From: Haladaptatus caseinilyticus
GTDB lineage: Archaea; Halobacteriota; Halobacteria; Halobacteriales; Haladaptataceae
Reading direction: 5' to 3'
Assembly (NCBI RefSeq): GCF_026248685.1
Contig: NZ_CP111038.1
Coordinates: forward strand, 62,001 to 126,000
Length of the DNA stretch: 64,000 nucleotides
Under the pieces are notes generated by a model. That model saw nothing but the letters and a program-made list of their open reading frames with translations, was not told where the DNA came from and made no database searches. Positions 8,912 through 54,116 of the stretch are shown here, in pieces; the first letter of the stretch is position 1; the number at the start of each line of letters is the position of its first letter. Position numbers and translations under genes: made by a program.

Positions 8912-9466
8912 ATGAGTAACAAGAACCCACGGTGGCCAGACGGTATGGATGGCGCAGAGCGCGTCCAGCACGTCGCAGCCACACGGACGGCCCCACGAAA
9001 CGCAAGTTGGATCGCCGAGGAGGCAGACGTCTCACGGGATACAGCCGTGAAATACCTCACTCGGCTGGTCGAGCAAGGGGAACTCACTGCGGTTGAAACG
9101 GATGCGGGCACCTGCTACAAACCAGATGGCGTTACACAGTTCCTTCGCGAGGTTCGCCAGCTCGCGGAGAACAACTCGATGGACGACCTGACCGCAGAAC
9201 TCCACGCAATCGGCGATGAAATCGATTCATGGCAAGCGACATACGACGTCGACTCGCTTGATGACTTGCGCCGCAGTCTCGGGAATGACGAACTGGGAGG
9301 CGAGGAGCGGCGTGAGCGACAGGAGATCGTCGAGGAATGGGAATACAACATCGAGATACGGGAAGCACTCCAACTGGCGATCAGCTTGAAAAGTTCGCTC
9401 ACGACGCTTGGAGCGGACCCATCCGTCCACGGAAGTTCCTTTGAAGGACTGTCACAAGAAGGGTAG
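8912..9466 (+). CDS. DUF7342-type winged-helix protein
   Basis: 184 residues from the ATG at 8912. An N-terminal winged-helix segment (SWIAEEADVSRDTAVKYLTRLVEQGEL) is followed by a charged helical half. It resembles haloarchaeal DUF7342 proteins, usually encoded next to a small TumE-like protein as a presumed antitoxin/repressor; a second member is at 15651-16178. Two direct copies of GTGCCAAA (about 8851 and 8871) lie upstream and could be operators. An earlier in-frame start at 8852 is possible but adds a poorly conserved stretch. The expected toxin partner downstream appears degraded. Confidence 0.65.
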   Translation: MSNKNPRWPDGMDGAERVQHVAATRTAPRNASWIAEEADVSRDTAVKYLTRLVEQGELTAVETDAGTCYKPDGVTQFLREVRQLAENNSMDDLTAELHAIGDEIDSWQATYDVDSLDDLRRSLGNDELGGEERRERQEIVEEWEYNIEIREALQLAISLKSSLTTLGADPSVHGSSFEGLSQEG

Positions 9467-9672
9467 TCTAGATGGTGATCTTTCTTGCTGGAGGTCGAGG
9501 CTATACTCGACGTGAAGGCCTTCGTCGTCTCAACGAACGCATAGCGAATACGCCCGGTGTCTCGAACGTTCGGTATGAACCATCCTGATTGCGGCCTCGA
9601 ACCGTGATTGGTGACGTGGATGTTGAGATGTTTCTTTGCGAGGAATTCCCACGGAAGGAAGCATAACTCGAA
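9467..9672 (-). pseudogene. Possible minus-strand protein fragment of unknown family
   Basis: Read on the minus strand, this stretch gives a protein-like run (WEFLAKKHLNIHVTNHG... then RIRYAFVETTKAF) that continues sensibly only if one base is restored near 9510 (giving HVEYSLDL). I do not recognise the family and no clear start or stop fits. It may be the remnant of a gene that replaced the partner of the DUF7342 gene. Confidence 0.25.
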
Positions 9673-9909
9673 GTGACGTGGCGACCACGCGAGGACGTTG
9701 CTGTCCAGCGAGTTCACTGGATTGATGATGCGGTGAGTCTCGGCTGGCACAAAGACGATGACCATGACGATTTGGGAACGACACACTTTCAGTGTGAGTC
9801 TGCCGACGATCGAGTGCACGAACCGGGGCACATCGAAGTGGAAGCCCCGTTGAGCTTTCTCGAAATCTGTCTGAATCGGCTTCCGGACCGGCTCGATGAA
9901 ACGAGATAA
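9673..9909 (+). CDS. Small haloarchaeal protein of unknown function
   Basis: 78 residues from a GTG at 9673. The sequence reads like a real protein (SLGWHKDDDHDDLGTTHFQ, then a GHIEVEAPLSFLEICLNRLP tail) with conserved-looking His and Asp residues, and resembles small proteins that accompany haloarchaeal winged-helix regulators. No ATG is available and an in-frame stop lies three codons upstream, so it may be a 5'-truncated remnant. Proposed partner of the DUF7342 gene upstream; inferred only from position. Confidence 0.45.
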   Translation: MTWRPREDVAVQRVHWIDDAVSLGWHKDDDHDDLGTTHFQCESADDRVHEPGHIEVEAPLSFLEICLNRLPDRLDETR

Positions 9910-9924
9910 CCTGCCATGAAACAC

Positions 9925-10560
9925 CTAGTGCAGGAGTATCGAAACGGGCGGCTTGTGGTGTGGATAGCCTCGAAAGCCCCCGCACGCTCGACGGCTGCGT
10001 CTCGCTGCGCTCCTCTCTGTGTTACGGTGCTTACGTCGCCTCGCTCATCGAGCGCACGGCCCCTTTCAATCCCACCCAGTTCGGACGACCAGGTTAGCTC
10101 TCCCACTGTTTTGACTGGTGATTCTCTCCGGCACGCCCCGCTCGCCGCGTGCCGCCTTCCGGTGAGCACAGCTCACCGACGTCCCACTCACTGTGTTCGC
10201 GGGACCTCCGCATCGCTCGCGACCGACCAGTCCGGGCATGCGGCCTCCGGCCGTTCCGGGCATCTGGTTTCGACGCCAGCACCAAGCGCGCTATCGGTTG
10301 CGTCTCCCGCTGGTCGACGGACACGAAACCGGCTTGTGTGCTGGGCGCTCGCTTCGGGCGGGTCGCCGCGCGGTGCTGGTACTATTCTCTTCGAAAACGC
10401 GCGCTCGCTTCGCGCCCAGGGGGACGCTCGCGAAGGCGCAAGCGAGCGCGCGCAGGAGAATGGATGCGTTGTGCAGTGTAGAGTTGTGACTCGTATAGGA
10501 GCGAGTGTCGGAAAAGACGCGATAGGAGGCGCGCCTTCGGTCGAAATCACATTGTGAGTG
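9925..10560. other. GC-rich structured noncoding region
   Basis: About 630 bases of GC-rich, hairpin-prone DNA with no convincing gene; the open frames across it have low-complexity Arg/Ser/Ala-rich products. It contains an imperfect inverted repeat of about 22 bases (9970-9991 against 10047-10069). Composition differs sharply from the AT-richer DNA around it. Such DNA next to RPA-like genes is familiar from haloarchaeal plasmids; its role is unknown. Confidence 0.5.
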
Positions 10561-10566
10561 ATTCCA

Positions 10567-11424
10567 ATGAGTAGTAAACAGACGATCGGTCAAATAGTTT
10601 CGGTTGACGAACAGGCGATTGAATGTAGTGAAGAGCAATTCGAGAGTGTTGAGAAGACACCTGAGCTGCGGCCGTCGGTTGAGCAGACGATCCAAGGGAA
10701 GGTGGATACGAATCATCCGGATGGGGTCGGCCGTGGACTGACGTTAGCAGCAGAAGAGCGATTGGTGGCACGAGAAACAGAAATCACACGAACGCGTGAG
10801 CGGTGGGATCGGGCACAGGATTCGGAGCGGGAAGTGCAGTGTCGGCGAGCATCGAAAGCAGTGAGTCGAGAACGGCGCTGTGCGTTCCAGGAGCGAGCGG
10901 CAAGTGTAGATCCGTGGTGTGACCCAGAACGAGGAGATCCTCGTGAGGAGTTGGCTCAAGAGCAGTTGGCGGCAGTGAACAAGCAGGCGATGCGATTAGC
11001 AGAGAAGCTCGATGGGTGGTCGCGAGCAGCGATCAGTCGGCGGTTAGCTGAACGGGTTGTAGATGGGACAAGTGTGATGGGTGCAGTCGTGAGTGTGTTC
11101 GAGGAATTGCGGACGGCCCCCGGGCAAGTCATTCCGATCGCGGATGTGCGAGATGTGAATCGCAAAGAGGTGAGCATCGAGGGGCAAGTTACCCAGCTGT
11201 GGACTCCTGGCAGTCCAAAGATCCAGCAAGTTGGACTGATCGAAGACGACAGTGGTCGTGTCAAATTCACCGTGTGGCGAGCATCGCAAAAGACGGTGGT
11301 TGAGGAAGGTGAGACCGTGCAATTTCGATCAGTCGCAAAGAATTGGTACGAGGGGCGGGTTTCGGTGGCAGTAACTGGGTGGAGCGGTATTCACAGTCCC
11401 GAGCGCGGTCGCTGGTGGGAATAG
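10567..11424 (+). CDS. RPA-like OB-fold single-stranded-DNA-binding protein
   Basis: 285 residues from ATG 10567 (a GTG at 10558 is the alternative). The N-terminal two thirds is charged and helical. The C-terminal third is a typical OB fold: VSIEGQVTQLW, then GLIEDDSGRVKFTVW and VQFRSVAKNWYEGRVSVAV, matching haloarchaeal RPA-like proteins. It probably binds single-stranded DNA during plasmid replication or repair. It is flanked on both sides by GC-rich noncoding DNA and is the only gene between 9.9 and 11.9 kb. No zinc finger is visible, unlike some chromosomal RPAs. Confidence 0.7.
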   Translation: MSSKQTIGQIVSVDEQAIECSEEQFESVEKTPELRPSVEQTIQGKVDTNHPDGVGRGLTLAAEERLVARETEITRTRERWDRAQDSEREVQCRRASKAVSRERRCAFQERAASVDPWCDPERGDPREELAQEQLAAVNKQAMRLAEKLDGWSRAAISRRLAERVVDGTSVMGAVVSVFEELRTAPGQVIPIADVRDVNRKEVSIEGQVTQLWTPGSPKIQQVGLIEDDSGRVKFTVWRASQKTVVEEGETVQFRSVAKNWYEGRVSVAVTGWSGIHSPERGRWWE

Positions 11425-11888
11425 TCCGGTAGTGTTGATTTCTTTTTTATTGTGTGCCGAACCGACCCAGGCCCCGCCGCCCCACCCTCCGCTCCGTGCT
11501 CGCTTCGCTGTGCGCGCAGCCACGACCGACGTAATAGTTTGCTGCGTTCTGCACTGGCAGGTAATAGTCAAATCCGGTGAATGCCGAGCGACTGTCCAGC
11601 GTGCTGCGACGAGTTGTGAGGGTGCTGGTTTAGAGACACTCACGGTCAACACAAGGATGGCGGGACGGTCGTCATGGACGTGGTATGGATTGAGACGCCA
11701 CAGTCAGCCGAGAGCACGAATCTGGCGGCGTTTGAGGTCTGCCGTCGTCCCAGTAGGGCCGTCAGTTGCTCAGCCAGAGTAGTGTGAAGAGGGGCACCCC
11801 ACAGGCGGAGATCCGGAGGAAAGACACGGTGGTCACGCCACACGAGAACGAAGGAAATGCGGAAGGTGGACAGTCCAGTCGAGGACAA
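11425..11888. other. Noncoding region after the RPA-like gene
   Basis: Starts with a T-rich run (about 11438-11450) that could terminate transcription, then a GC-rich stretch (about 11465-11520) like the one before the RPA-like gene. Open frames here look non-coding. I see no other feature. Confidence 0.4.
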
Positions 11889-12353
11889 CTATGGTCGCCG
11901 AACTGTTACTGACTTCACAGATGTGCCAGTTTGCTTGACTCTGACCGTTGTCGGCAGTTGCTCTTTCATTGTCACCACTAATCGATATGCATCAGCACTC
12001 TCATCACCAGTACAACTCCCACTAAACCAGGATGATGTATCGGTACTCCCAACTTTCACAGTGAGTGTCTGGGATGTTTCGGAGTATGAAACATCCATGA
12101 GATCTGCTTTGTTGCACGTACTTGACCCAACAAAGAGTGCTCCACGAACGACCACCTGTTTCGACTCCGGTTTGAAAGAGACAATTGGTTGTTCGGTTGG
12201 CCCAGGGAAGTCGGTGGTCCTATCAAAGCTTGATTCATAGATGGTGAATTCATAATCCGCAATGGAGTCAAATCCCTCAGCAGTACCTCCGATATTGAGA
12301 CAGCCACTACCGAGTGCGAGGGCAGTCACAGAAAGGAATACACGGCGTTTCAT
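11889..12353 (-). CDS. Small Tat-type lipoprotein
   Basis: 154 residues. The N-terminus (MKRRVFLSVTALALGSGCL) combines a twin-arginine motif with a lipobox (GSGC), so the protein is predicted to be exported folded and lipid-anchored outside the cell. The mature part is beta-rich and Ser/Thr-rich with two further cysteines (in SSTCNK and GSCTG) that may form a disulfide. This is a common haloarchaeal secreted type of unknown role. It is divergent from the membrane-protein gene at 12515. Confidence 0.7.
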   Translation of the reverse strand: MKRRVFLSVTALALGSGCLNIGGTAEGFDSIADYEFTIYESSFDRTTDFPGPTEQPIVSFKPESKQVVVRGALFVGSSTCNKADLMDVSYSETSQTLTVKVGSTDTSSWFSGSCTGDESADAYRLVVTMKEQLPTTVRVKQTGTSVKSVTVRRP

Positions 12354-12514
12354 AGCGAGATATCTGTGTAGTCAAGAATAAGCTTCGTGATGAGTGAAAT
12401 AACTCTTTGACAGTACTCTCCCTATTATCGTCGCAGCGGCATTCAGAACACCGCCACGCTCTGTCGTGTCTGCCAAGGCATAACGTAAAGACATCTACAC
12501 ACCTCTTAGAAACT

Positions 12515-12880
12515 ATGAATAACCACCCATCACCCGCAACCCGATCCGCATGGACAGCCCGATCGACGCTCATACTCTTTGGGTTTCTTGCACTTACATC
12601 ACAACTCCCTGCCGTCGTTGATATCCACAGCAATGTGGCCTTCCGACTGCTCTTTATTCCGGCGTATCTTGTTTCAAGTCTCTTTTACGAGGGGCTTGGA
12701 CTCGAATACATAATCTATGCTCTTGATGGGGTATTTCCAGGCGAACAAACTGCTTTATGGGAGGTAGGACAGATTGTCACGTATTATCTGTTTGCTGTGA
12801 GTGCCACATGGCTTGGACGGTGGCTCGAAACCCACAAACAGAAGCCGAATCATCAAACGTCGAGCAACAAAGGAGGGTAA
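12515..12880 (+). CDS. Small integral membrane protein
   Basis: 121 residues from ATG 12515. Hydrophobic segments suggest three transmembrane helices (around residues 15-33, 40-60 and 85-105); a charged, Gln/Asn/Lys-rich tail is probably cytoplasmic. No enzyme motif seen. A longer frame beginning at 12407 is unlikely, since the added residues are not membrane-like. It lies 4 bases before the next membrane gene, so they form an operon. Confidence 0.6.
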   Translation: MNNHPSPATRSAWTARSTLILFGFLALTSQLPAVVDIHSNVAFRLLFIPAYLVSSLFYEGLGLEYIIYALDGVFPGEQTALWEVGQIVTYYLFAVSATWLGRWLETHKQKPNHQTSSNKGG

Positions 12881-12884
12881 CTCC

Positions 12885-13148
12885 ATGACAGTCCGATACA
12901 CCATTGCAGCAGCGTTCCTGTTGGTCGGTATTCTGTTGGTGGTCATGAATCTATTTAGTCCACCACAAGTGACGGCTATGGGCTGTTCAGAAACATACAC
13001 GGGTCCAGACACACCTCCTGAACGTCACTGTACAAAAACAACGAGTATCGCCACAGGGCAATTGGTGTATGTCTTGGGAATCGGCGCTGGTGCGATTGGG
13101 ATTGGCTATGCGCTCGTTTTTAGTGATCAATTCATTGACCGGATCTGA
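12885..13148 (+). CDS. Two-helix membrane protein
   Basis: 87 residues with two hydrophobic helices (about residues 6-25 and 60-80) and an external loop with two cysteines (MGCSETYTG...RHCTKT) that could form a disulfide. A strong AGGAGG Shine-Dalgarno (12871-12876) overlaps the end of the previous gene and fixes the ATG at 12885, so translation is coupled to it. Function unknown. Confidence 0.6.
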   Translation: MTVRYTIAAAFLLVGILLVVMNLFSPPQVTAMGCSETYTGPDTPPERHCTKTTSIATGQLVYVLGIGAGAIGIGYALVFSDQFIDRI

Positions 13149-13317
13149 ATTGAGTATCCGTATTGCAAGTCGATTAGCGTCGATCTCGACATCCCGCGTG
13201 TCTTCTACGACGATCGCAAGTTCACTGTGGAGCGTGTCGAACTGGGGTGTCTCACGGTTATGGGAGACGCTACCGAGCAAAACGTCAAAGATAGTCGCCA
13301 GCCAGATAGATATGGAA
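13140..13317 (-). pseudogene. Possible minus-strand gene remnant behind the 13.3 kb palindrome
   Basis: The minus strand reads ATIFDVLLGSVSHNRE... then SELAIVVEDTRDVEIDANRL, which looks like a real helical protein but has no start codon and runs into the 3' end of the membrane gene. The palindrome at 13326-13344 lies directly upstream on that strand, as a promoter/operator would. Family not recognised; low confidence. Confidence 0.25.
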
Positions 13318-13325
13318 ATACGGAG

Positions 13326-13344
13326 GTTAGTATAGTATACTAAC
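13326..13344. promoter_or_regulatory. Palindrome GTTAGTATA-G-TATACTAAC
   Basis: Perfect inverted repeat with 9-base arms and a single central base, containing TATA-like sequence, so probably a promoter with a repressor site on it. Close relatives occur at 48637-48655 and 54096-54116. Confidence 0.55.
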
Positions 13345-13465
13345 TCACTACTAGCTCAAAATCTGAAGCAAGAGGGATAGAATCGACTCACGCAGAACAC
13401 TGCAACTCGCGAAAATCTTCCTCGTATCTATTCCTTATCGCGAGAACTACTTAAACGCGAATTGG

Positions 13466-13815
13466 TTAGTGGCCGTCGCCCTCCTCGACACGGAATGACC
13501 CACTGCAGTTGCTACAACTATACTGCTCCGGGTTACGGACGGTCTTCGAGCGGCGATAGCGCGGAATCCGTCCACCGCAGTCCTCGCAGATGAGCCACCA
13601 CTTCGGCGTGGTGAAGCGTTCGCAGTGCTGCGAAGTATCGAGAGCGTCCGTCCAGCGGGTGAACGTTGCGCCGTGATCCGCGTCGCCGAACTTGTGATAC
13701 TGCCAGGCGTGAATGAGTTCGTGCCGGACGGTGGAACTGAATTGCTCCCATCCGTGTTGTTCGTAGGCCGTCCACGGAGAGATTGCAATCTTGTATGTTG
13801 TGAGGAATCTCCGAC
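13466..13815 (-). pseudogene. SprT-like zinc protease, C-terminal fragment (copy A, 3' part)
   Basis: On the minus strand the sequence gives WTAYEQHGWEQFSSTVRHEL, then IHAWQYHKFG, i.e. the HExxH zinc-protease motif of SprT-like proteins (HELIH), followed by a zinc ribbon (CEDCGGRIPRYRRSKTV...CSNCSG) and the stop at 13466. No start codon is in frame: upstream the frame closes near 13815. The missing N-terminal half lies 800 bases away at 14613-14872 in the same orientation, with a BKACE-type gene between. The parts overlap by about six residues but differ in sequence, so they may come from different paralogues. SprT/Spartan-type proteins cleave DNA-protein crosslinks. Confidence 0.7.
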
Positions 13816-13866
13816 AAGTGCTACGATCTAATTATACTATCCGCTAACAAACTAGGGAGCAACCTA

Positions 13867-14604
13867 ATGACTGATCAGATCACACTGCAGGCTGCACTCA
13901 ACGGTGGTCGTACACATCCTAGCGTCCCCCACACGCCAGAAGAACTTGCAGTCGAGGCTCGCGCGGCAGTCGACGCCGGAGCCACGTCACTTCATCTGCA
14001 CCCGTATGATGAACACGGCCGTGAGACACTCACACCAGGACCGTGTGCTGCGGCGCTCCACGCAGTCCGCTCTACATGCCCAGGAATCCCGATTTCGCTT
14101 AGTACGTCCGCGGATATCGAACCTGATCCGGAGCAGCGATATGAACTCATTTCAGCCTGGACTGAGCTTCCAGACCTCGTAACGGCTAATCAAGGTGAGA
14201 GGGGAATTCACGAGCTCTGCGAATTGCTCACTGAACGAGATATTGGGATTGAGGCGGGTCTATTGTCCCTCAAGGACGCGCGCATCTTCGTCGAATCGGG
14301 CATCGCCCCACAGTGCGTACGGGCAATGGTCGAGCCACTGGATTCGAACCCAGATGACGCAGTCGCCCACGCAGAAGCTATTGAAAGGACACTCAATGAA
14401 GCTGAAATCGATCTTGAGCAAGTCCATCACGGAGATGGGATTGCATCATGGGCAGTGAATCGACGTGCTGTGGCGCGAGGACATGCTATTCGCACGGGTC
14501 TGGAGGACACGACAGTCCTGCCTGATGGACATGCTGCTTCGGGAAACGGTGAGCTTGTTGACGCCGCAACCTCACTATTGGCAGAAAACGAAACACAGGA
14601 CTAA
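13867..14604 (+). CDS. BKACE-family (DUF849) beta-keto acid cleavage enzyme
   Basis: 245 residues with the TIM-barrel signature of 3-keto-5-aminohexanoate cleavage enzymes: an N-terminal ALNGGRTH, VDAGATSLHLHPYDEHGRE with the metal-binding His pair, then SLSTSADIEPDP and VEPLDSNPDDAV. These enzymes condense a beta-keto acid with acetyl-CoA. It is shorter than typical members (about 270-310 residues) but has a full-looking barrel. It stands alone, antiparallel to and between the two halves of a broken SprT-like gene, so it looks like a single-gene insertion. Substrate cannot be told from sequence. Confidence 0.8.
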   Translation: MTDQITLQAALNGGRTHPSVPHTPEELAVEARAAVDAGATSLHLHPYDEHGRETLTPGPCAAALHAVRSTCPGIPISLSTSADIEPDPEQRYELISAWTELPDLVTANQGERGIHELCELLTERDIGIEAGLLSLKDARIFVESGIAPQCVRAMVEPLDSNPDDAVAHAEAIERTLNEAEIDLEQVHHGDGIASWAVNRRAVARGHAIRTGLEDTTVLPDGHAASGNGELVDAATSLLAENETQD

Positions 14605-14612
14605 TCCATCTA

Positions 14613-14872
14613 CGTTAGTGCGATTATTCTCTCGTTCGTCACGGGGTCATATTTCCCGGTCCCTGCTTGCCCTTGGCTCGGCGTGAAACCTCCCAATCGA
14701 TCGCGTTGACCGGCAGTTCTGGGAAGTGCTCGGTGGCGACGTTCGTTGCGTGCTGTCGTGCTTGGTCGAGGAGGGCTGTTGGTGTCTCGGGAGTATCGTC
14801 GGTCTCTGTGTTCGTGCTTTCCGTCAGCGTTCGCTGATTGGTGATATCCGAGAACATCAATCGCTGTGCCAT
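14613..14872 (-). pseudogene. SprT-like protein, N-terminal fragment (copy A, 5' part), frameshifted
   Basis: Begins with ATG at 14872 (MAQRLMFSDITNQRTLTEST) and contains the conserved ATEHFPELPVNAIDWEVSRR stretch seen in the other copies. Near 14650-14660 the frame shifts: one frame ends at GNMTP-stop, while the matching continuation (GKYDPVTNERIIALT) is in another frame and stops at 14610-14612. The catalytic HExxH half is missing here and is found at 13466-13815 beyond the BKACE gene. It lies 24 bases after the SWIM gene, the same order as at 18.3-18.8 kb. Confidence 0.65.
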
Positions 14873-14896
14873 GGATAAAAACAGCTGAAGCGGTGG

Positions 14897-15244
14897 TTAG
14901 TTCGGTAGTTCCTTTCGTCCCGTCCTCACGCACGGCCAGCACGGGAAGCCACCGAGGCCCTCACAGTCACAGTCTTCGAGTTCGTCTTCGTCTTCCGAAG
15001 GGAACGCGTCAAGCGTCCCGTCGTCAGTTGCGTTTTCGACGGCGGCCATGTGTTTGCAAAAGGCGTTACGGTGGACGTGATGCGGGCACGTGCAGGCCAT
15101 CAGTTCGTGGGTCACGTCGTCGATGGAGACTGTGTACTGGTGGTTTGCGGGGTTTTCGTTGATGACTTCAATGGGTCCGGGGTATGGATATTGAAGGATT
15201 GGTTTACTGGAGAACCCCTCACTCGTGGTTGTTCCAAACTTCAC
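14897..15244 (-). CDS. SWIM zinc-finger protein with altered N-terminus
   Basis: 115 residues, GTG start. The core has the SWIM motif CxC...CxH (CTCPHHVHRNAFCKHMAAV) and ends in a Cys-rich signature (DCDCEGLGGFPCWPCVRTGR) shared by all four SWIM proteins in this window. From about residue 31 onward it is nearly identical to the protein at 18408-18791, but the N-terminus is unrelated and overlaps the 3' end of the TumE-like gene by 26 bases, so the original start was probably replaced by recombination near 15190. SWIM fingers bind DNA or protein partners; here the gene is paired with an SprT-like fragment. Confidence 0.65.
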   Translation of the reverse strand: MKFGTTTSEGFSSKPILQYPYPGPIEVINENPANHQYTVSIDDVTHELMACTCPHHVHRNAFCKHMAAVENATDDGTLDAFPSEDEDELEDCDCEGLGGFPCWPCVRTGRKELPN

Positions 15245-15647
15245 CTACTCGGTCATCCACATGCTCGAGAACGGAATCGATGACAGCAACAAAATCGGCT
15301 GGGAAGTCTCGGTCAACAGCATCTTCGGTACGTGCCTTCGGTGGTTGATGGAAGTGATCTCGGGAATTATGCGGATTCTCATGCCGATCCCACCGACACA
15401 TCCACGCCGTGCCATCTCTCTCCTCACGATAGGTGATATTGAAATCACCATTCGTGTAGACACGGATCTCGAATACAACCTGTTGGATTGTGTCAGGAAA
15501 GTACTGAAGATCTAACCACGCAACGACCGATTCCGGACGCTCGTGTGGAAAGACAGAGACAGATTCAACGAGTGAGAGCGTACCCAATCGACGAGCAATG
15601 TGACGTAACAGTGTCTCATCGAGTATTTTCTCGGTATCGTCGCTCAT
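15219..15647 (-). CDS. TumE-like (DUF6516) toxin-antitoxin component
   Basis: 142 residues. The central segment (VYTNGDFNITYREERDGTAW, then WDRHENPHNSRDHFHQPP) carries the RDHFHxPP-type motif I associate with TumE/DUF6516 proteins, small beta-rich proteins coded beside a winged-helix partner. The ATG at 15645-15647 is 3 bases after the DUF7342 stop, so the two form an operon. Its 3' end overlaps the altered SWIM gene. Which partner is toxin and which antitoxin cannot be told here; the winged-helix partner is presumed to repress the operon. Confidence 0.6.
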   Translation of the reverse strand: MSDDTEKILDETLLRHIARRLGTLSLVESVSVFPHERPESVVAWLDLQYFPDTIQQVVFEIRVYTNGDFNITYREERDGTAWMCRWDRHENPHNSRDHFHQPPKARTEDAVDRDFPADFVAVIDSVLEHVDDRVGEVWNNHE

Positions 15648-15650
15648 CGA

Positions 15651-16178
15651 TTAGGCGGACGCTTGCGTGGTGTTGTCGTGGTTCTGCCGTGCCTGTTCGA
15701 GTTCTTCGATTCTCCGTCGAACGGTTTTCCACTCTTGCAACTCCGACCAGACATCCTCGATATCAGCATAGTCAGCATGATCGAGCGCATCCACGTGGTC
15801 GGGTCCCTCGACATCGTATTTTTCACGGTAGCGCCGCTCTTTTTCGATTTCCGTTTTCAATCGTTGTTCAAGTTCCTCCACGGGGAGTCCGCCTAACCGA
15901 TGAATTCGTCGCCATTGGAAGTAATCCTCGTCACGGACGAATTCGTCTGGTGCCTCGTTGGTCTGCGTTAGCATCCCGATTTCCGTGAACCACTGCAGAT
16001 AGTCTCGAGCGGTTTCCTTCGAGACATTTGCTCTCTCGGCAATCGCAGCAACTCGTGTTGGATCATACAACTGCAGGGCAGTGGTGTACACCCGATCTCG
16101 CGTTGACTCGTCTTCCCACGTTTCAGTCCATTCCTCAGCGAGACTTGGTGGCGTGGGTGGGGTGTCGTCTGAGGTCAT
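15651..16178 (-). CDS. DUF7342-type winged-helix protein paired with TumE
   Basis: 175 residues. Residues about 35-75 form a winged helix (RVAAIAERANVSKETARDYLQWF), followed by a long charged helical half. It is a divergent paralogue of the protein at 8912-9466. It is the first gene of a two-gene operon with the TumE-like protein, matching an antitoxin/autorepressor role, though this is inferred from gene order. Confidence 0.62.
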   Translation of the reverse strand: MTSDDTPPTPPSLAEEWTETWEDESTRDRVYTTALQLYDPTRVAAIAERANVSKETARDYLQWFTEIGMLTQTNEAPDEFVRDEDYFQWRRIHRLGGLPVEELEQRLKTEIEKERRYREKYDVEGPDHVDALDHADYADIEDVWSELQEWKTVRRRIEELEQARQNHDNTTQASA

Positions 16179-16264
16179 ATCCTATTCTTCGCACTACTAC
16201 ACCATATATCTTGTTCGCGCTTAAAATATTGAGTAGTGGATGCGAGGTATCGATTCTCGCAATA

Positions 16265-16770
16265 TTACTGACCATCGCTCTCCTCAACGCGAATTGCACC
16301 GCCGCACTCACTACAGCTGTACTGCTCCGGGTTACGTACCGTCTTCGACCGGCGATACCGGCCGATCCGTCCACCACAGTCCTCGCACACGAGCCACCAC
16401 TTGGGTGCAGTGAAGCGTTCGCAGTGTTTCGAGGTATCGAGAGCGTCCGTCCACTGGGTGAACGCTCGCCCGTGATCTGCCTCACCGAACTCGTGATATT
16501 GCCATGCGTGAATCAGTTCGTGCCGGACGGTGGAGCTGAATTGCTCCCAGCCGTGCTTCTCGTAGGCCGTCCAGGTCAGCACGATCGTAATTGCCTCTGT
16601 TGCAGGGTCGTACTTCGTAACGCCCGCTTGTCGTTGCGCCTGATGTGAGACCTCCTACTCGATCGTTTCGACCGGCAGGCCAGGGAAATGCTCAGTGGCG
16701 AGGTCGGCCGCATGGCATTGCGCACAGTTGAGCAGATCCCGCTCGGTATCTCGTGGGACACTGGTAATTG
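16265..16770 (-). pseudogene. SprT-like zinc protease interrupted by a TAG codon (copy B)
   Basis: The 3' half (16265-16654) reads as a good SprT-like domain: VTKYDPATEAITIVLTWTAY, then the HELIH active site and a CEDCGG...CSECGG zinc ribbon. Upstream the same frame continues as ATEHFPGLPVETIE, then TAG at 16655-16657, then EVSHQAQRQAG. In copy A this position is Trp (DWEVSRR), so TGG has become TAG. The extreme N-terminus (before about 16770) also lacks the usual conserved start. A shortened product starting from a GTG inside (about 16582) would retain the HExxH but lose the DNA-binding-like N-terminal half. Confidence 0.7.
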
Positions 16771-16820
16771 ATACTGAGTGTTGAGAGAAACCGATGTAAT
16801 CGAAATTCTGAGGTACTAAT

Positions 16821-17369
16821 CTATGGTGGATTCTCTTGAAGATCGCGGACATACATTTCTGGTGGGTCAACATTTGATGACGGCATCCCGACTTTACTAG
16901 GGTCAAGATCAAGAAGCCCATCTCGTTCAAATTTTTTAGCAGCGTAAAATGCTCGTGCATCGTCGTTTTTCGGGTGAAACAAGACTTTCACGCGATCGAT
17001 TGATTCGGGAAGAGCCTTCAACCCCCGTTCGAGTAATTTTGTTCCGACTCCTTCTCCATGGTGGTCAGGATGAAGATAAATATGTCGTAGATCAGCTTCG
17101 TTTGCACTCAAATAGGGAGAATCCGTCGTGTTCCACGTGATATACAGATACCCGATGATCCCGGCAGCATCGTCGTCGACTACGAGAACAACACCTTCGT
17201 CATCAGTGAGCCGCTCGTTCAATTTTTCGGAGTGATAAAATTCGCTGCTTGTCACGTGGTCCCGAACGGTGTCAGTGCCAAGATAGTCAGAGTACGTTGC
17301 AATCCATGATTCCTGTACAGTTGTTCGAATACCAGGAAAATCGTCTTCACGTGCGTTTCGAATCATCAA
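16821..17369 (-). CDS. GNAT-family N-acetyltransferase
   Basis: 182 residues with the GNAT core: an N-terminal IRNAREDDFPGI strand-helix, the middle strand (EADLRHIYLHPDHHGEGVG) carrying the acetyl-CoA pyrophosphate loop of R/Q-x-x-G-x-G/A type (HHGEGVG), and a C-terminal FYAAKKFERDG segment. Substrate unknown. Its 3' end lies next to the broken SprT-like gene, with which it overlaps no conserved part. It is divergent from the HTH regulator at 17539, with a 14-base palindrome between. Confidence 0.85.
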   Translation of the reverse strand: MMIRNAREDDFPGIRTTVQESWIATYSDYLGTDTVRDHVTSSEFYHSEKLNERLTDDEGVVLVVDDDAAGIIGYLYITWNTTDSPYLSANEADLRHIYLHPDHHGEGVGTKLLERGLKALPESIDRVKVLFHPKNDDARAFYAAKKFERDGLLDLDPSKVGMPSSNVDPPEMYVRDLQENPP

Positions 17370-17419
17370 CTACGATGAGTCACGACAAGGGATTAGAATT
17401 TGTGTCGTGATAGTGCAAT

Positions 17420-17433
17420 AACTATCGATAGTT
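17420..17433. promoter_or_regulatory. Perfect palindrome AACTATCGATAGTT
   Basis: 14-base perfect palindrome between the divergent GNAT gene and HTH regulator gene. Possible operator shared by both promoters; a related half (ACAATTATAGTTAAT) follows it. Confidence 0.45.
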
Positions 17434-17538
17434 GGACAATTATAGTTAATCAATATTTGCGATTACTACCCAATAACGACAGATATGAGACTCAAAAGAG
17501 CAGAGGAATATAGTATAATCTATGCTTGGTAATTGCAC

Positions 17539-18270
17539 ATGCGCGAATTTCGATTCACGGTTGAGTTTGATAGTGGAGCAGATCCTGTCGCAGATGTATT
17601 TCTCAATCATCCAAGTTTACAGGCAAAATCAATCTCAATTTCCGTCTCTACACACGGAATGTGGCGTGTTGACCGCATTACTGGGACTGATGACGGGATT
17701 ACAGCACTCACATCAGCACTTGTCGACGATCAGTATTGCCCCGAATGCGTTGGTGAACACGAAGAGTGTGACGCACAATGGGAGTACGAAATAATCAGTC
17801 GAGATACTGGTGGTGTATTTTTATATTCGTTTTTAGATACAGTTTCGTACTGTCATTCAATTCCATTTCTTGCGGCGACAGGCATGGGCAACGGATCGTT
17901 CTTCGATACATATCGTCACCAGGGCATCTACAATTGGCGCATCTTACTTCGAGAGCACCAACGCATTAGTGAGTTATTTGCGCAAGTCCAAGAGAACGTT
18001 CCATCAGGGGTGTCGATCACGCTCCAGCAATTGAAAGAGCCCACACGGTGGGGCAATGGGGCCAAGACGCTCGCGGATCTCCCCCGGAACCAACAACAGG
18101 CGATTGAGACTGCTCATCAATTGGGATATTATGCAACTCCGCGCTCTGTAACGCTTGAAGACATCGCGACTGAACTCGAAATTCCTCGATCAACGCTTCG
18201 CTATCGTCTTCGCAGTGCTGAGGAGTGGGTTATGGATAGTTTTGTAGCCCAGCATCGCCTTTCGGAGTAG
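17539..18270 (+). CDS. Bat-type HTH_10 transcriptional regulator
   Basis: 243 residues from ATG 17539. The N-terminal part is beta-rich with a CPECVGEHEEC cysteine cluster that may bind metal. The C-terminus (residues about 180-235) is the bacterio-opsin-activator-type HTH: QQQAIETAHQLGYYATPRSV then LEDIATELEIPRSTLRYRLR and the SAEEWVMDSF helix. Such haloarchaeal regulators sense a signal by the N-terminal domain and bind promoters by the HTH. Divergent from the acetyltransferase gene, which it may control. Confidence 0.8.
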   Translation: MREFRFTVEFDSGADPVADVFLNHPSLQAKSISISVSTHGMWRVDRITGTDDGITALTSALVDDQYCPECVGEHEECDAQWEYEIISRDTGGVFLYSFLDTVSYCHSIPFLAATGMGNGSFFDTYRHQGIYNWRILLREHQRISELFAQVQENVPSGVSITLQQLKEPTRWGNGAKTLADLPRNQQQAIETAHQLGYYATPRSVTLEDIATELEIPRSTLRYRLRSAEEWVMDSFVAQHRLSE

Positions 18271-18305
18271 AAAACAACACCAGAATCATCTAGCGCTCGA
18301 AGATG

Positions 18306-18386
18306 GCACCTGTCAGTCGGTGCATCCGCGCTTTCCGTGAGCGTTCGCTGGTCGGTGATATCCGAGAACGTCACTTGGCGTGACAT
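18306..18386 (-). pseudogene. SprT-like N-terminal stub (copy C)
   Basis: Begins MSRQVTFSDITDQRTLTESA, clearly the same N-terminus as copy A (MFSDITNQRTLTEST), but diverges after about 26 residues. It sits 21 bases after the intact SWIM gene at 18408-18791, showing the ancestral SWIM-SprT order. The rest of the protease is absent, deleted next to the 3' end of the HTH regulator. Confidence 0.55.
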
Positions 18387-18407
18387 AAATGAAAAGAGTG
18401 AACGGGA

Positions 18408-18791
18408 TTAGTTCGGCAGTTCTTTGCGACCCGCACGAACGCACGGCCAGCATGGGAAGTCACCGAGGCCGTCACAGTCGCAGTCTTCGGGTTCGTCTTC
18501 GTCTTCCGAGGGGAAGGCCTCAAGCGTCCCATCGTCGGTTGCGTTCTCGACTGCAGCCATATGCTTGCAGTAGGCGTTGCGATGGACGTGATGCGGGCAG
18601 GTACAGGCCATCAGTTCCTCGGTCACGTCGTCGATGGAGACCACGTATTGGTGGTCTGCGGGGTTCTCGTGGCTCTCATTGGTGACGTCGATGAGTCCGG
18701 GGGCATCGACGTCGAAGGAGAACTGTTCCCATTGTGCGCGTTTCTGTGCCGTCTCGTCAGCTTCAAGGGCTGCGGATTGCTTTGTACTCAT
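18408..18791 (-). CDS. SWIM zinc-finger protein, intact copy
   Basis: 127 residues and the best-preserved SWIM protein here. N-terminal half: KRAQWEQFSFDVDAPGLIDV, a small beta domain. Middle: SWIM finger CTCPHHVHRNAYCKHMAAV (CxCxnCxH). C-terminus: DCDCDGLGDFPCWPCVRAGR, a second Cys cluster with two CxC/CxxC pairs that may bind another zinc. A GC-rich hairpin lies about 30 bases before the ATG, and a tandem operator repeat further upstream is shared with the divergent winged-helix gene. Downstream is the stub of its SprT-like partner. SWIM domains bind nucleic acids or proteins; the partner suggests DNA repair, but this is inference. Confidence 0.78.
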   Translation of the reverse strand: MSTKQSAALEADETAQKRAQWEQFSFDVDAPGLIDVTNESHENPADHQYVVSIDDVTEELMACTCPHHVHRNAYCKHMAAVENATDDGTLEAFPSEDEDEPEDCDCDGLGDFPCWPCVRAGRKELPN

Positions 18792-18820
18792 GGTCTTCTA
18801 GCACGTTTCGGAAGACCGGT

Positions 18821-18842
18821 GCCGGGTGCTGGAACACCCGGC
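18821..18842 (-). promoter_or_regulatory. Leader hairpin upstream of the SWIM gene
   Basis: Perfect 8-base inverted repeat GCCGGGTG / CACCCGGC with a 6-base loop, 30 bases before the SWIM start on the minus strand. It resembles the GC-rich leader hairpins at 54-61 kb, two of which also precede SWIM-cassette genes. Likely in the 5' untranslated RNA. Confidence 0.5.
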
Positions 18843-18884
18843 GCGTTTCTACACACGCCCGAGGGCACCGTTCTTCCTACCATA

Positions 18885-18941
18885 TCCCATGTGGGAGTCG
18901 GTATTAAAGATTTCGGTGTCCTACGTAGGAGTTGGTATTAA
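18885..18941. promoter_or_regulatory. Tandem promoter/operator repeats between SWIM and winged-helix genes
   Basis: Two 23-base direct repeats at 18885-18907 and 18919-18941, 34 bases apart, each made of a palindrome (TCCCATGTGGGA, TCCTACGTAGGA) followed by AGTYGGTATTAA, which includes a TATA-like box. The second palindrome is perfect. The likely regulator is the small winged-helix protein encoded 26 bases downstream. Confidence 0.55.
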
Positions 18942-18966
18942 GTAGATGGCTGCAATACTATGGACT

Positions 18967-19212
18967 ATGACTGAAAACGAAAGTGAACGCGACGAGCAGG
19001 GACGATTTGTGGAGCAAACGAGTGATGAGGATATTGTTCGCGTGATTCGTGAGTCCGAGTTTCCAGCAGTGACTGCTCGGTGGGTCGCAGATACGGTTAG
19101 GATGAAACGACGCCCAGTGCATCAGCGGCTCGAGGAGTTGCATGAGCAGGGTGCGTTAGAACGCGGGAAATTGAGCCCGCGGGTGGTTATCTGGTGGATT
19201 CCAGGAGGGTAG
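18967..19212 (+). CDS. Small winged-helix DNA-binding protein
   Basis: 81 residues from ATG 18967. An acidic N-terminus (MTENESERDEQGRF) leads into a compact winged helix (FPAVTARWVADTVRMKRRPV, then HQRLEELHEQGALERGKL) with a basic wing ending in VVIWWIPGG. Size and position suggest a local repressor acting on the tandem palindromes just upstream and controlling itself and the divergent SWIM gene. Confidence 0.65.
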   Translation: MTENESERDEQGRFVEQTSDEDIVRVIRESEFPAVTARWVADTVRMKRRPVHQRLEELHEQGALERGKLSPRVVIWWIPGG

Positions 19213-19403
19213 AAAGTATATTACGTGCTTCTCATGAGAACTGTCATCAGACCATGGTTTACATCGTAGGAGTGATTATCTGGTATCATTGTATCCTGCT
19301 GTTGGCTTTGGGGCGGGTCACCCGCCTAGTCTCTCAGGGTGGGGAAGAGAATGGTGTTAAAGTCGAGTAAATATTACTGGGTAGGGATGTCTACACAGCG
19401 GTA
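19213..19403. other. Short noncoding gap with a GC-rich palindrome
   Basis: Contains GGCGGGT-C-ACCCGCC at 19312-19326, a perfect palindrome-like hairpin, before the DUF5677 gene. It could be an operator of that gene. Nothing else seen. Confidence 0.35.
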
Positions 19404-20513
19404 ATGAGCGAGAAGGAAACTGAAATCGATGATTGGTACATCACCGCCACAAAAGGAGTAATGGAACGCGTCGTCAAAGAAGTCGAATCCTACGACGGCG
19501 AGATTGATGACGAAGCCGAGGAGGAGATTCTTGACATAGGAGTTGACGTCCTCCTCGACGAGCTAGCGCGTAAGTACGACAAGGCAATCAAGGAGGAGAA
19601 GAGCAACCGCGACCAGATGGAAGAGAGCATCCGGGGCACGTGGGAGCACGCACTCGACTTCCTCGACTTCTTCATCCTCGTCAACCAGAAGTCGCGTCGA
19701 CTCATCGAGCAGGTCTCAGGTGTGGACGAGAAGGACGAAGACTATCAGTTCGACGCCCTGATGAGACTTCACGTTCGCGCGTTGCGGGTGAGTCGGGAAG
19801 TCGCGGCATTACTCCGGGCAGGATTCGCCGACGGGGCGATGGCCCGATGGCGAACCCTGCACGAGATCGCGGCCGTCGCCACGATCATCGCCGAAGAAGG
19901 CGAGGTGGCGGGCGAGCGGTATCTGAAGTTCAAGACCGCAAAGGACTTATTCCGGGTCAAGAACAACTACGACGACTACTTCGAGAAGCTCGGGTTCGAC
20001 GAGATTCCCGAGGAAGACGTTGAGGAGTTAGAGGCGCAGACCGAGGAACTCATTGACAAGTTCGGCGAGGACTTTGATAATTTCAACGGATGGGCGACAG
20101 CGTTCGTGGAGGGTGGTGGCGGGGTGACGATTACGGACTTGATCGAGGAAGCCGAACTGGAGGAGTATCTGCCATTCTACGCGCTGGCGTGCGATTCCAT
20201 CCACGCGGGGTCGAAGGGGACCCTGTTCCAGATGGGTTTGCACGAGGCCGAGATGGGTGGCGAGGAAGAGGTGTTGCTGGCTGGGCGCTCAGACATCGGG
20301 TTCACCGATCCGGCGCAGTTAACCGCGATCATGCTCCGGGAGACAACCGAGGCATTGCGGGCGTTGGTTCCGGATGAGAACTGGCAGGCGCACTGGGAGA
20401 TGTACTTTCGGGCGATGGACGTGTTAGTAGACGAGATCGCCGATGCGTTCTGGCACGTCGATCAACTGCTCTCCGGGATGCGGGGGGCGGGCGTCCGACC
20501 GGATGTGGCGTGA
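19404..20513 (+). CDS. DUF5677-family helical protein
   Basis: 369 residues, largely alpha-helical and strongly acidic. The region around residues 130-160 (RVSREVAALLRAGFADGAMA, then RWRTLHEIAAVATII) carries the R-x-L-x-E motif of DUF5677 proteins, and a later SIHAGSKGT segment matches the conserved His region. Family members are common in defence and mobile islands and are thought to resemble HEPN nucleases, but no activity is established here. It opens the defence island. Higher GC than its right-hand neighbours suggests separate acquisition. Confidence 0.75.
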   Translation: MSEKETEIDDWYITATKGVMERVVKEVESYDGEIDDEAEEEILDIGVDVLLDELARKYDKAIKEEKSNRDQMEESIRGTWEHALDFLDFFILVNQKSRRLIEQVSGVDEKDEDYQFDALMRLHVRALRVSREVAALLRAGFADGAMARWRTLHEIAAVATIIAEEGEVAGERYLKFKTAKDLFRVKNNYDDYFEKLGFDEIPEEDVEELEAQTEELIDKFGEDFDNFNGWATAFVEGGGGVTITDLIEEAELEEYLPFYALACDSIHAGSKGTLFQMGLHEAEMGGEEEVLLAGRSDIGFTDPAQLTAIMLRETTEALRALVPDENWQAHWEMYFRAMDVLVDEIADAFWHVDQLLSGMRGAGVRPDVA

Positions 20514-48636: not shown

Positions 48637-48655
48637 GTTAGGATAATATACTAAC
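48637..48655. promoter_or_regulatory. Palindrome-like GTTAGGATA-A-TATACTAAC
   Basis: Near-perfect inverted repeat with one mismatched pair, related to the sites at 13326-13344 and 54096-54116. It sits between the nuclease gene (minus strand, start 48550) and relic copy 3. Confidence 0.5.
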
Positions 48656-54095: not shown

Positions 54096-54116
54096 GGTTA
54101 GTATATTATACTAACC
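54096..54116. promoter_or_regulatory. 21-base perfect palindrome with TATA core
   Basis: Arms GGTTAGTATA and TATACTAACC around one central base. The same motif, slightly shorter, is at 13326-13344 and 48637-48655. It lies 80 bases upstream of a hairpin leader and the small zinc genes, and probably is an operator-promoter. Confidence 0.6.

Follow-up and report, generated by a model that had tools for sequence, protein, structure and literature searches.

The minimal mobile elements of Neisseria (Saunders and Snyder 2002) are described, in the passages of PMC3082526 devoted to them, as whole-gene cassettes that lie between two conserved genes. According to the same passages, these cassettes contain no mobility genes, vary between strains and are exchanged via homologous recombination in their flanks. 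Integron cassette arrays and CALINs occur in Archaea, as reported in part of PMC9668308, an article whose main text does not contain the string Halobacteri-. For a multi-copy module composed of a SWIM gene and an SprT-like gene, we found no description in the sections of the open-licence literature that were covered, PMC11899642 included; most subscription papers fall outside that body of text. Such a module is present in a 64-kb stretch of DNA from Haladaptatus caseinilyticus, hereafter the window, which corresponds to positions 62001-126000 of the 142-kb contig C3 in a genome (G000) of seven contigs. To our knowledge, there is so far little explanation of how single metabolic genes pass from one archaeon to another in the absence of mobility genes. 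The repeat family described here offers a concrete and testable route, in that dispersed, co-oriented operon copies represent portable homology: any gene lodged in a module copy could be swapped among plasmids and between species without a dedicated transposase. Our comparison between species suggests that, by way of these repeats, single genes can be exchanged among plasmids in this manner.

The starting point is an SprT-like gene on the minus strand that is divided in two by a gene on the plus strand. The C-terminal part (13466-13813) is in frame from module nucleotide (nt) 827 to the SprT stop codon and matches PF10263 with 33.9 bits against a cut-off of 25.6; its translation contains HELIH, HExxH being a metalloprotease motif. 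With its 3' tail, this part belongs to a module fragment that spans 13326-13801. The N-terminal part (14606-14872, minus strand) comprises an ORF at 14639-14872 with a one-base frame shift near its end, and homology continues to about 14606-14613. Measured against an intact SprT from H. pallidirubidus, the N part stops at residue 108 and the C part begins at residue 99 (module nt 863 and 827, respectively); the same split in H. pallidirubidus itself falls at residues 108 and 103. The two parts overlap by about 6-10 residues, and in both species the overlapping copies are unlike in sequence, which agrees with the short, dissimilar overlap noted in an earlier sequence-only reading of this DNA. 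The frame shift in the N part has its counterpart in H. pallidirubidus in a stop codon in each part, and the divided SprT gene at this locus is non-functional as a whole. A distance of 24 bp separates the SprT start from the upstream SWIM zinc-finger gene of the same module (14897-15244, minus strand), whose standard 5' end has been replaced.

The gene between the two parts (13867-14604, plus strand) is a complete ORF of 245 amino acids that encodes a member of the beta-keto acid cleavage enzymes (BKACE; PF05853, 96.3 bits against a cut-off of 24.8, covering 237 of the 245 residues in Pfam). The sequence-only reading had described precisely this arrangement, a complete BKACE gene between oppositely oriented SprT-like parts, and had remarked on the absence of a visible transposase; both observations hold. 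No ORF of 70 or more amino acids besides BKACE is present in the 804-bp gap between the SprT parts, and we detected neither a transposase gene nor terminal inverted or direct repeats nor a palindrome at the edges of the insert. The distance from the SprT C part to the BKACE start codon is about 60 bp and that from the BKACE stop codon to the end of the SprT N part about 6 bp; the insert thus consists of one gene with minimal flanks. The upstream region (13802-13866, plus strand), which is conserved in H. pallidirubidus, contains a TATA-like element, TTATACTAT, that is a putative promoter element. In the alignment with the 3-keto-5-aminohexanoate cleavage enzyme 2y7d of the BKACE/DUF849 family, the HLH and ED positions, which we take to be zinc ligands, are retained. 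The best score against NCBIfam equivalogs was 58.1 bits, far below the cut-offs of 350 and 382, so that the protein was not assigned as an equivalog of KCE, 3-oxoadipate or 3,5-dioxohexanoate activity. The dN/dS of BKACE relative to H. pallidirubidus is 0.2, and purifying selection evidently still acts on the gene.

Elsewhere in the H. caseinilyticus genome, where further copies had been proposed as worth looking for, BKACE has only one weak chromosomal match and is otherwise a single-copy gene. It occurs in four of the nine Haladaptatus genomes and is missing from G008 and four further congeners. The orthologues in H. salinisoli, H. halobius and Halosolutus lie in loci of 8.7-10.7 kb that gave no module match. 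A BKACE gene in a Pseudonocardiales metagenome bin (L033, 5001-5705) is 72% identical to the haloarchaeal one, hinting at a transfer between domains. We also observed that a second radA copy sits about 350 bp from the BKACE gene of H. halobius; second radA copies above the family cut-off are found in five of the nine Haladaptatus genomes (G002:C2:1242952-1245014, G003:C8, G006:C3, G004:C7 and G000:C1).

The module to which the split gene belongs measures 1.3 kb and consists of the SWIM gene followed by the SprT gene. In the nhmmer profile of 1301 nt, about 93 nt of upstream sequence precede a leader hairpin that begins at nt 94; SWIM occupies nt 182-571 and SprT nt 596 to about 1165, and a terminal palindrome, GTTAGTAT-NNN-ATACTAAC, concludes the unit. 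Only L107 and L114 are near-complete (nt 9-12 to 1301), other nhmmer matches being shorter. At E 1e-5, the nine Haladaptatus genomes, which were treated as congeners, contain 39, 5, 90, 58, 97, 13, 35, 23 and 53 SWIM matches, compared to 0-2 in each of 19 genomes from two further genera within the family. Within H. caseinilyticus, SWIM is matched 45 times at E 0.01, a count that includes one weak chromosomal match, and the SprT C part 19 times. The SWIM scores with PF04434 are 18.1 and 19.6 bits, the cut-off being 19.6, and the C, C, C and H positions of the CxCx(n)CxH pattern are nearly invariant across 23 copies; an AlphaFold model of SWIM with a mean pLDDT of 43 was set aside as a basis. 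Among copies with at least 55% identity and at least 70 codons, SWIM has no internal stop in 65 of 71 (median dN/dS 0.17) and SprT none in 11 of 21, the other 10 containing stops (median dN/dS 0.14). The low SprT median indicates that most of the SprT divergence predates the decay of this gene. The module family accounts for many of the broken SprT annotations in Haladaptatus. A side observation is that L072 (13055-13392) and G003 C10 (L104 region) contain the same insert of 338-339 bp between SWIM and SprT, at module nt 574/605.

The palindrome at the module's 3' end lies at 13326-13344 beside BKACE, and further sites in the window are located at 48637-48655 and 54097-54115. In ten copies, it follows the last matching SprT position at a distance of 117-275 bp. 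Genome-wide, 54 sites with at most three mismatches were found and none with the reversed control; the sites listed are confined to contigs C2-C7, and the 2.65-Mb contig C1 has none of them. In several families, similarity breaks off exactly at the outer edge of the palindrome, a candidate operator or recombination site. A role as a universal crossover site was rejected, as the palindrome also occurs in other plasmid contexts and is absent from the BKACE edges. A sequence of about 100 bp immediately to the left of the palindrome (13152-13257) recurs at at least some twenty places in congeners and is therefore probably another repeat family. At the opposite end of the module, the leader is exemplified by the second copy in the window (about 18792-18880, minus strand), where a conserved hairpin, GCCGGGTG..CACCCGGC, is found upstream of SWIM. 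The leader of L107 has a different sequence and is again self-complementary; with this one alternative version, a claim of covariation in the hairpin was dropped. Rfam gave no match for window positions 9000-20000, which include the leader.

The sequence-only reading had treated the BKACE insertion as a lone event. This does not hold; BKACE is one cargo of many, and the repeat family is present in all nine Haladaptatus genomes searched. Directly beside the BKACE module lies a two-gene cargo (15219-16178, minus strand) that encodes a 142-residue protein without family hit and a DUF7342 winged-HTH protein, and this is followed by a second module copy (16259-18961) that is split like the BKACE copy, by two other genes. 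Its 3' piece (16259-16752, minus strand; SprT, module nt 678-1170) and its 5' piece (18311-18961, minus strand; module nt 11-671, comprising the leader, SWIM at 18408-18791 and the start of SprT) enclose a cargo span (16821-18270) with a GNAT acetyltransferase gene (16821-17369, minus strand) and a gene for an HVO_2928_N/HTH_10 regulator (17533-18270, plus strand). Adjoining the leader, a divergent gene (18946-19212, plus strand) encodes a small protein without family hit that is predicted to be winged-HTH-like.

The same pattern extends over the other arrays. In 757 kb of DNA from H. caseinilyticus and five congeners, an nhmmer census recovered 179 module fragments, mostly incomplete copies with one or few unrelated genes between them. 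Of the neighboring fragment pairs separated by less than 12 kb, 142 are co-oriented and 4 point in opposite directions. In H. caseinilyticus, 44 gaps of 250-3500 bp separate neighboring fragments; from 79 listed ORFs, 36 proteins were chosen by hand for a Pfam scan, and 28 of those 36 matched a family at 1e-5. The families include Usp, PIN, MazE-type antitoxin, SufBD, M20 peptidase, alcohol dehydrogenase, SnoaL, short-chain dehydrogenase, epoxide hydrolase, PHO4, MFS and carbonic anhydrase, and only one of the 36 scanned proteins, a TnpB, is transposase-related. Among these cargo genes, BKACE does not stand out. Pairs of fragments that are split within 60 nt of the module register number 12 of 109, compared to 7.0 after shuffling; this modest excess implies that many arrays are not clean insertions into a whole module. 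Breakpoints are concentrated at module nt 800-850 (14 ends and 9 starts among the 109 pairs), where the BKACE site is also located; several of these entries represent one junction present at two places (e.g., C4_12842 and G3C10b_30073). Within this interval the position of the breakpoint varies by some 50 nt between cases, and no shared motif at the cargo ends was seen by eye. A base-precise insertion site was rejected, given that the breakpoints fall on differing bases. The pile-up is not accounted for by plain homologous recombination.

The nearest plasmid relatives of the window contig are Haladaptatus records. In one of them, the H. pallidirubidus plasmid NZ_CP085307.1, the SprT C part, BKACE, the SprT N part and the end of SWIM follow each other in the same order over 1457 bp with 83% identity. 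The occurrence of identical structure and junctions in an independent complete plasmid excludes an assembly artefact and upholds the collinearity of the SprT halves with BKACE. When the 17 kb around this block were compared with the whole window, paralogues of the module were the only further likeness, and the block in H. pallidirubidus is thus at a different locus. A syntenic site without BKACE was found once, in G008. There, the left flank, the palindrome and the SprT C part correspond to the window (12343-13774 matching L135 12502-11074 over 1434 bp, 86%), as does a block on the SWIM side (14982-16624, 1657 bp, 87%); the next stretch of SprT follows after 31 bp in G008 and after about 870 bp in H. 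caseinilyticus. The G008 copy, which begins at module nt 703 and is itself interrupted farther upstream by a CNNM/CorC protein gene, is continuous across the BKACE site (module nt 703-1301). Comparison with relatives thus yielded the uninterrupted SprT copy that had been suggested as a check, and it supports the original view that BKACE was inserted inside an SprT-like gene. Downstream of the block of wHTH, hypothetical and SWIM genes, four genomes differ: BKACE is found here, whereas G008 has the CNNM/CorC protein, G002 a FilR1-type regulator, and G003 a 461-residue protein and a Na/Ca exchanger.

The extent of divergence is not the same in BKACE as in its flanks. Between H. caseinilyticus and H. 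pallidirubidus, dS is 0.32 for BKACE (48 of 184 synonymous sites), 1.14 for the SprT C part (31 of 53) and 0.65 for the SprT N part (20 of 46), with gyrB (0.59; 181 of 445) and radA (0.59) as reference genes. The difference between BKACE and the other sequences is significant in Fisher's test for the C part (p = 2e-5), the N part (p = 0.03) and gyrB (p = 5e-4). With common junctions and unequal divergence, crossovers or conversion near the junctions must have parted BKACE from its flanks, although other causes of a lower silent rate in BKACE are conceivable. The involvement of recombination between paralogues, which the sequence-only reading had placed on a par with simple insertion, is thereby supported. 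The closest relative of the H. caseinilyticus SprT C part is the syntenic copy in G008 (89.1%), level with one copy from G003, whereas the C part that accompanies BKACE in H. pallidirubidus is not among the ten best matches listed; the N part from H. pallidirubidus ranks twelfth in the list for that side, with the query itself counted. In a tree of 25 copies of the SprT C part, 15 of 22 inner branches remained open and the ranking was not settled further. The ends of blocks that the genome has in common with congeners fall on module fragments in 34 of 74 cases, compared to 10.7 (sd 2.8) for random placement with a maximum of 21 in 1000 runs, a statistic that partly favors the exchange model by construction, since alignments can run into any module fragment. 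This test was restricted to array zones; from the 62 blocks, 25 were left out that touched the edge of a stretch or had no module within 1.5 kb.

We consider it probable that genes were lodged in a dispersed repeat and then swapped by homologous recombination between its copies. An operon module with leader, SWIM, SprT-like metalloprotease gene and palindrome has multiplied on Haladaptatus plasmids, and single genes or gene pairs would have become lodged in or between its copies through joining events. Module pieces on both sides of a gene, together with the many co-oriented copies, would provide the homology for ordinary homologous recombination, which we infer to be the mover of the cargo genes. 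A gene could then reach other loci and species through a double crossover with another copy, or through circles that integrate and are lost at direct repeats, and the same recombination could also delete it; such circles would leave co-oriented fragments behind. BKACE (13867-14604) would be one such cargo. An alternative that dispenses with the repeats is a single old, illegitimate insertion of BKACE into SprT followed by vertical inheritance. The identical junctions in two species and the disabled SprT parts (through the frame shift here and stops in H. pallidirubidus) fit this scenario; however, the H. pallidirubidus block is not syntenic, BKACE is less and the SprT C part more diverged than chromosomal gyrB, and the syntenic copy in G008 lacks BKACE, all of which make an undisturbed inheritance quite unlikely. 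Another possibility is that dead module copies tolerate random insertions like a neutral sponge, the arrays reflecting general gene turnover on plasmids. The stops in 10 of 21 SprT copies, the diversity of the cargo and the only modest enrichment of clean splits are in line with this explanation. Nevertheless, we regard it as unlikely: with SWIM open in 65 of 71 copies and a median dN/dS of 0.17, the copies are not simply dead, and random insertion does not sit well with a co-orientation of 142 to 4 or with block ends concentrated at modules.

The co-oriented arrays of single genes, toxin-antitoxin-type genes among them, the palindrome at the module end and the pile-up of breakpoints at nt 800-850 are reminiscent of site-specific capture as in integrons, for which either the leader hairpin or the palindrome would serve as the recombination site. 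This is very unlikely, given that no match to an integron integrase (TIGR02249) was found in the whole genome at E 1e-3, that the breakpoints are ragged over some 50 nt without a common cargo-end motif visible by eye, and that the BKACE edges lack the palindrome. Transposition through an unseen or trans-acting transposase could explain the overlap of the SprT halves as an old target duplication of about 20 nt, but the copies of the overlap differ in both species, terminal repeats at the BKACE edges are lacking, and the single TnpB among the 36 scanned cargo proteins is the only transposase-related one; we regard transposition as extremely improbable. A bolder extension of exchange between repeats is that the module itself, including its leader hairpin and palindrome, is a novel type of mobile gene-capture system, in which SWIM, intact in most copies, and SprT promote recombination between copies and so build integrase-free arrays on archaeal megaplasmids. 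Elsewhere, links to recombination and to DNA-protein crosslink repair are known for SWIM-domain and SprT-type proteins, and for this reason the idea appears worth keeping, even if there is quite a low probability that it is correct.

Exchange between dispersed copies, as we prefer to read the data, resembles both of the described systems. As in integron arrays and CALINs, single genes are placed between co-oriented repeats, and the cargo varies between species and includes toxin-antitoxin-type genes. Unlike in integrons, the Haladaptatus repeat is not a short attC site but a protein-coding module with ragged breakpoints, and an integrase match is lacking. The likeness to minimal mobile elements consists in different whole-gene cassettes that occupy one place across four genomes, and the exchange by homologous recombination that characterizes these elements agrees with the comparative data from Haladaptatus, namely the mismatch in divergence and the position of the block ends. 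The difference lies in the flanks: these are formed by a multi-copy module in co-oriented plasmid arrays, with the cargo inside broken copies, rather than by two conserved genes. The Haladaptatus repeats would therefore work like a minimal mobile element without being one in the strict sense.
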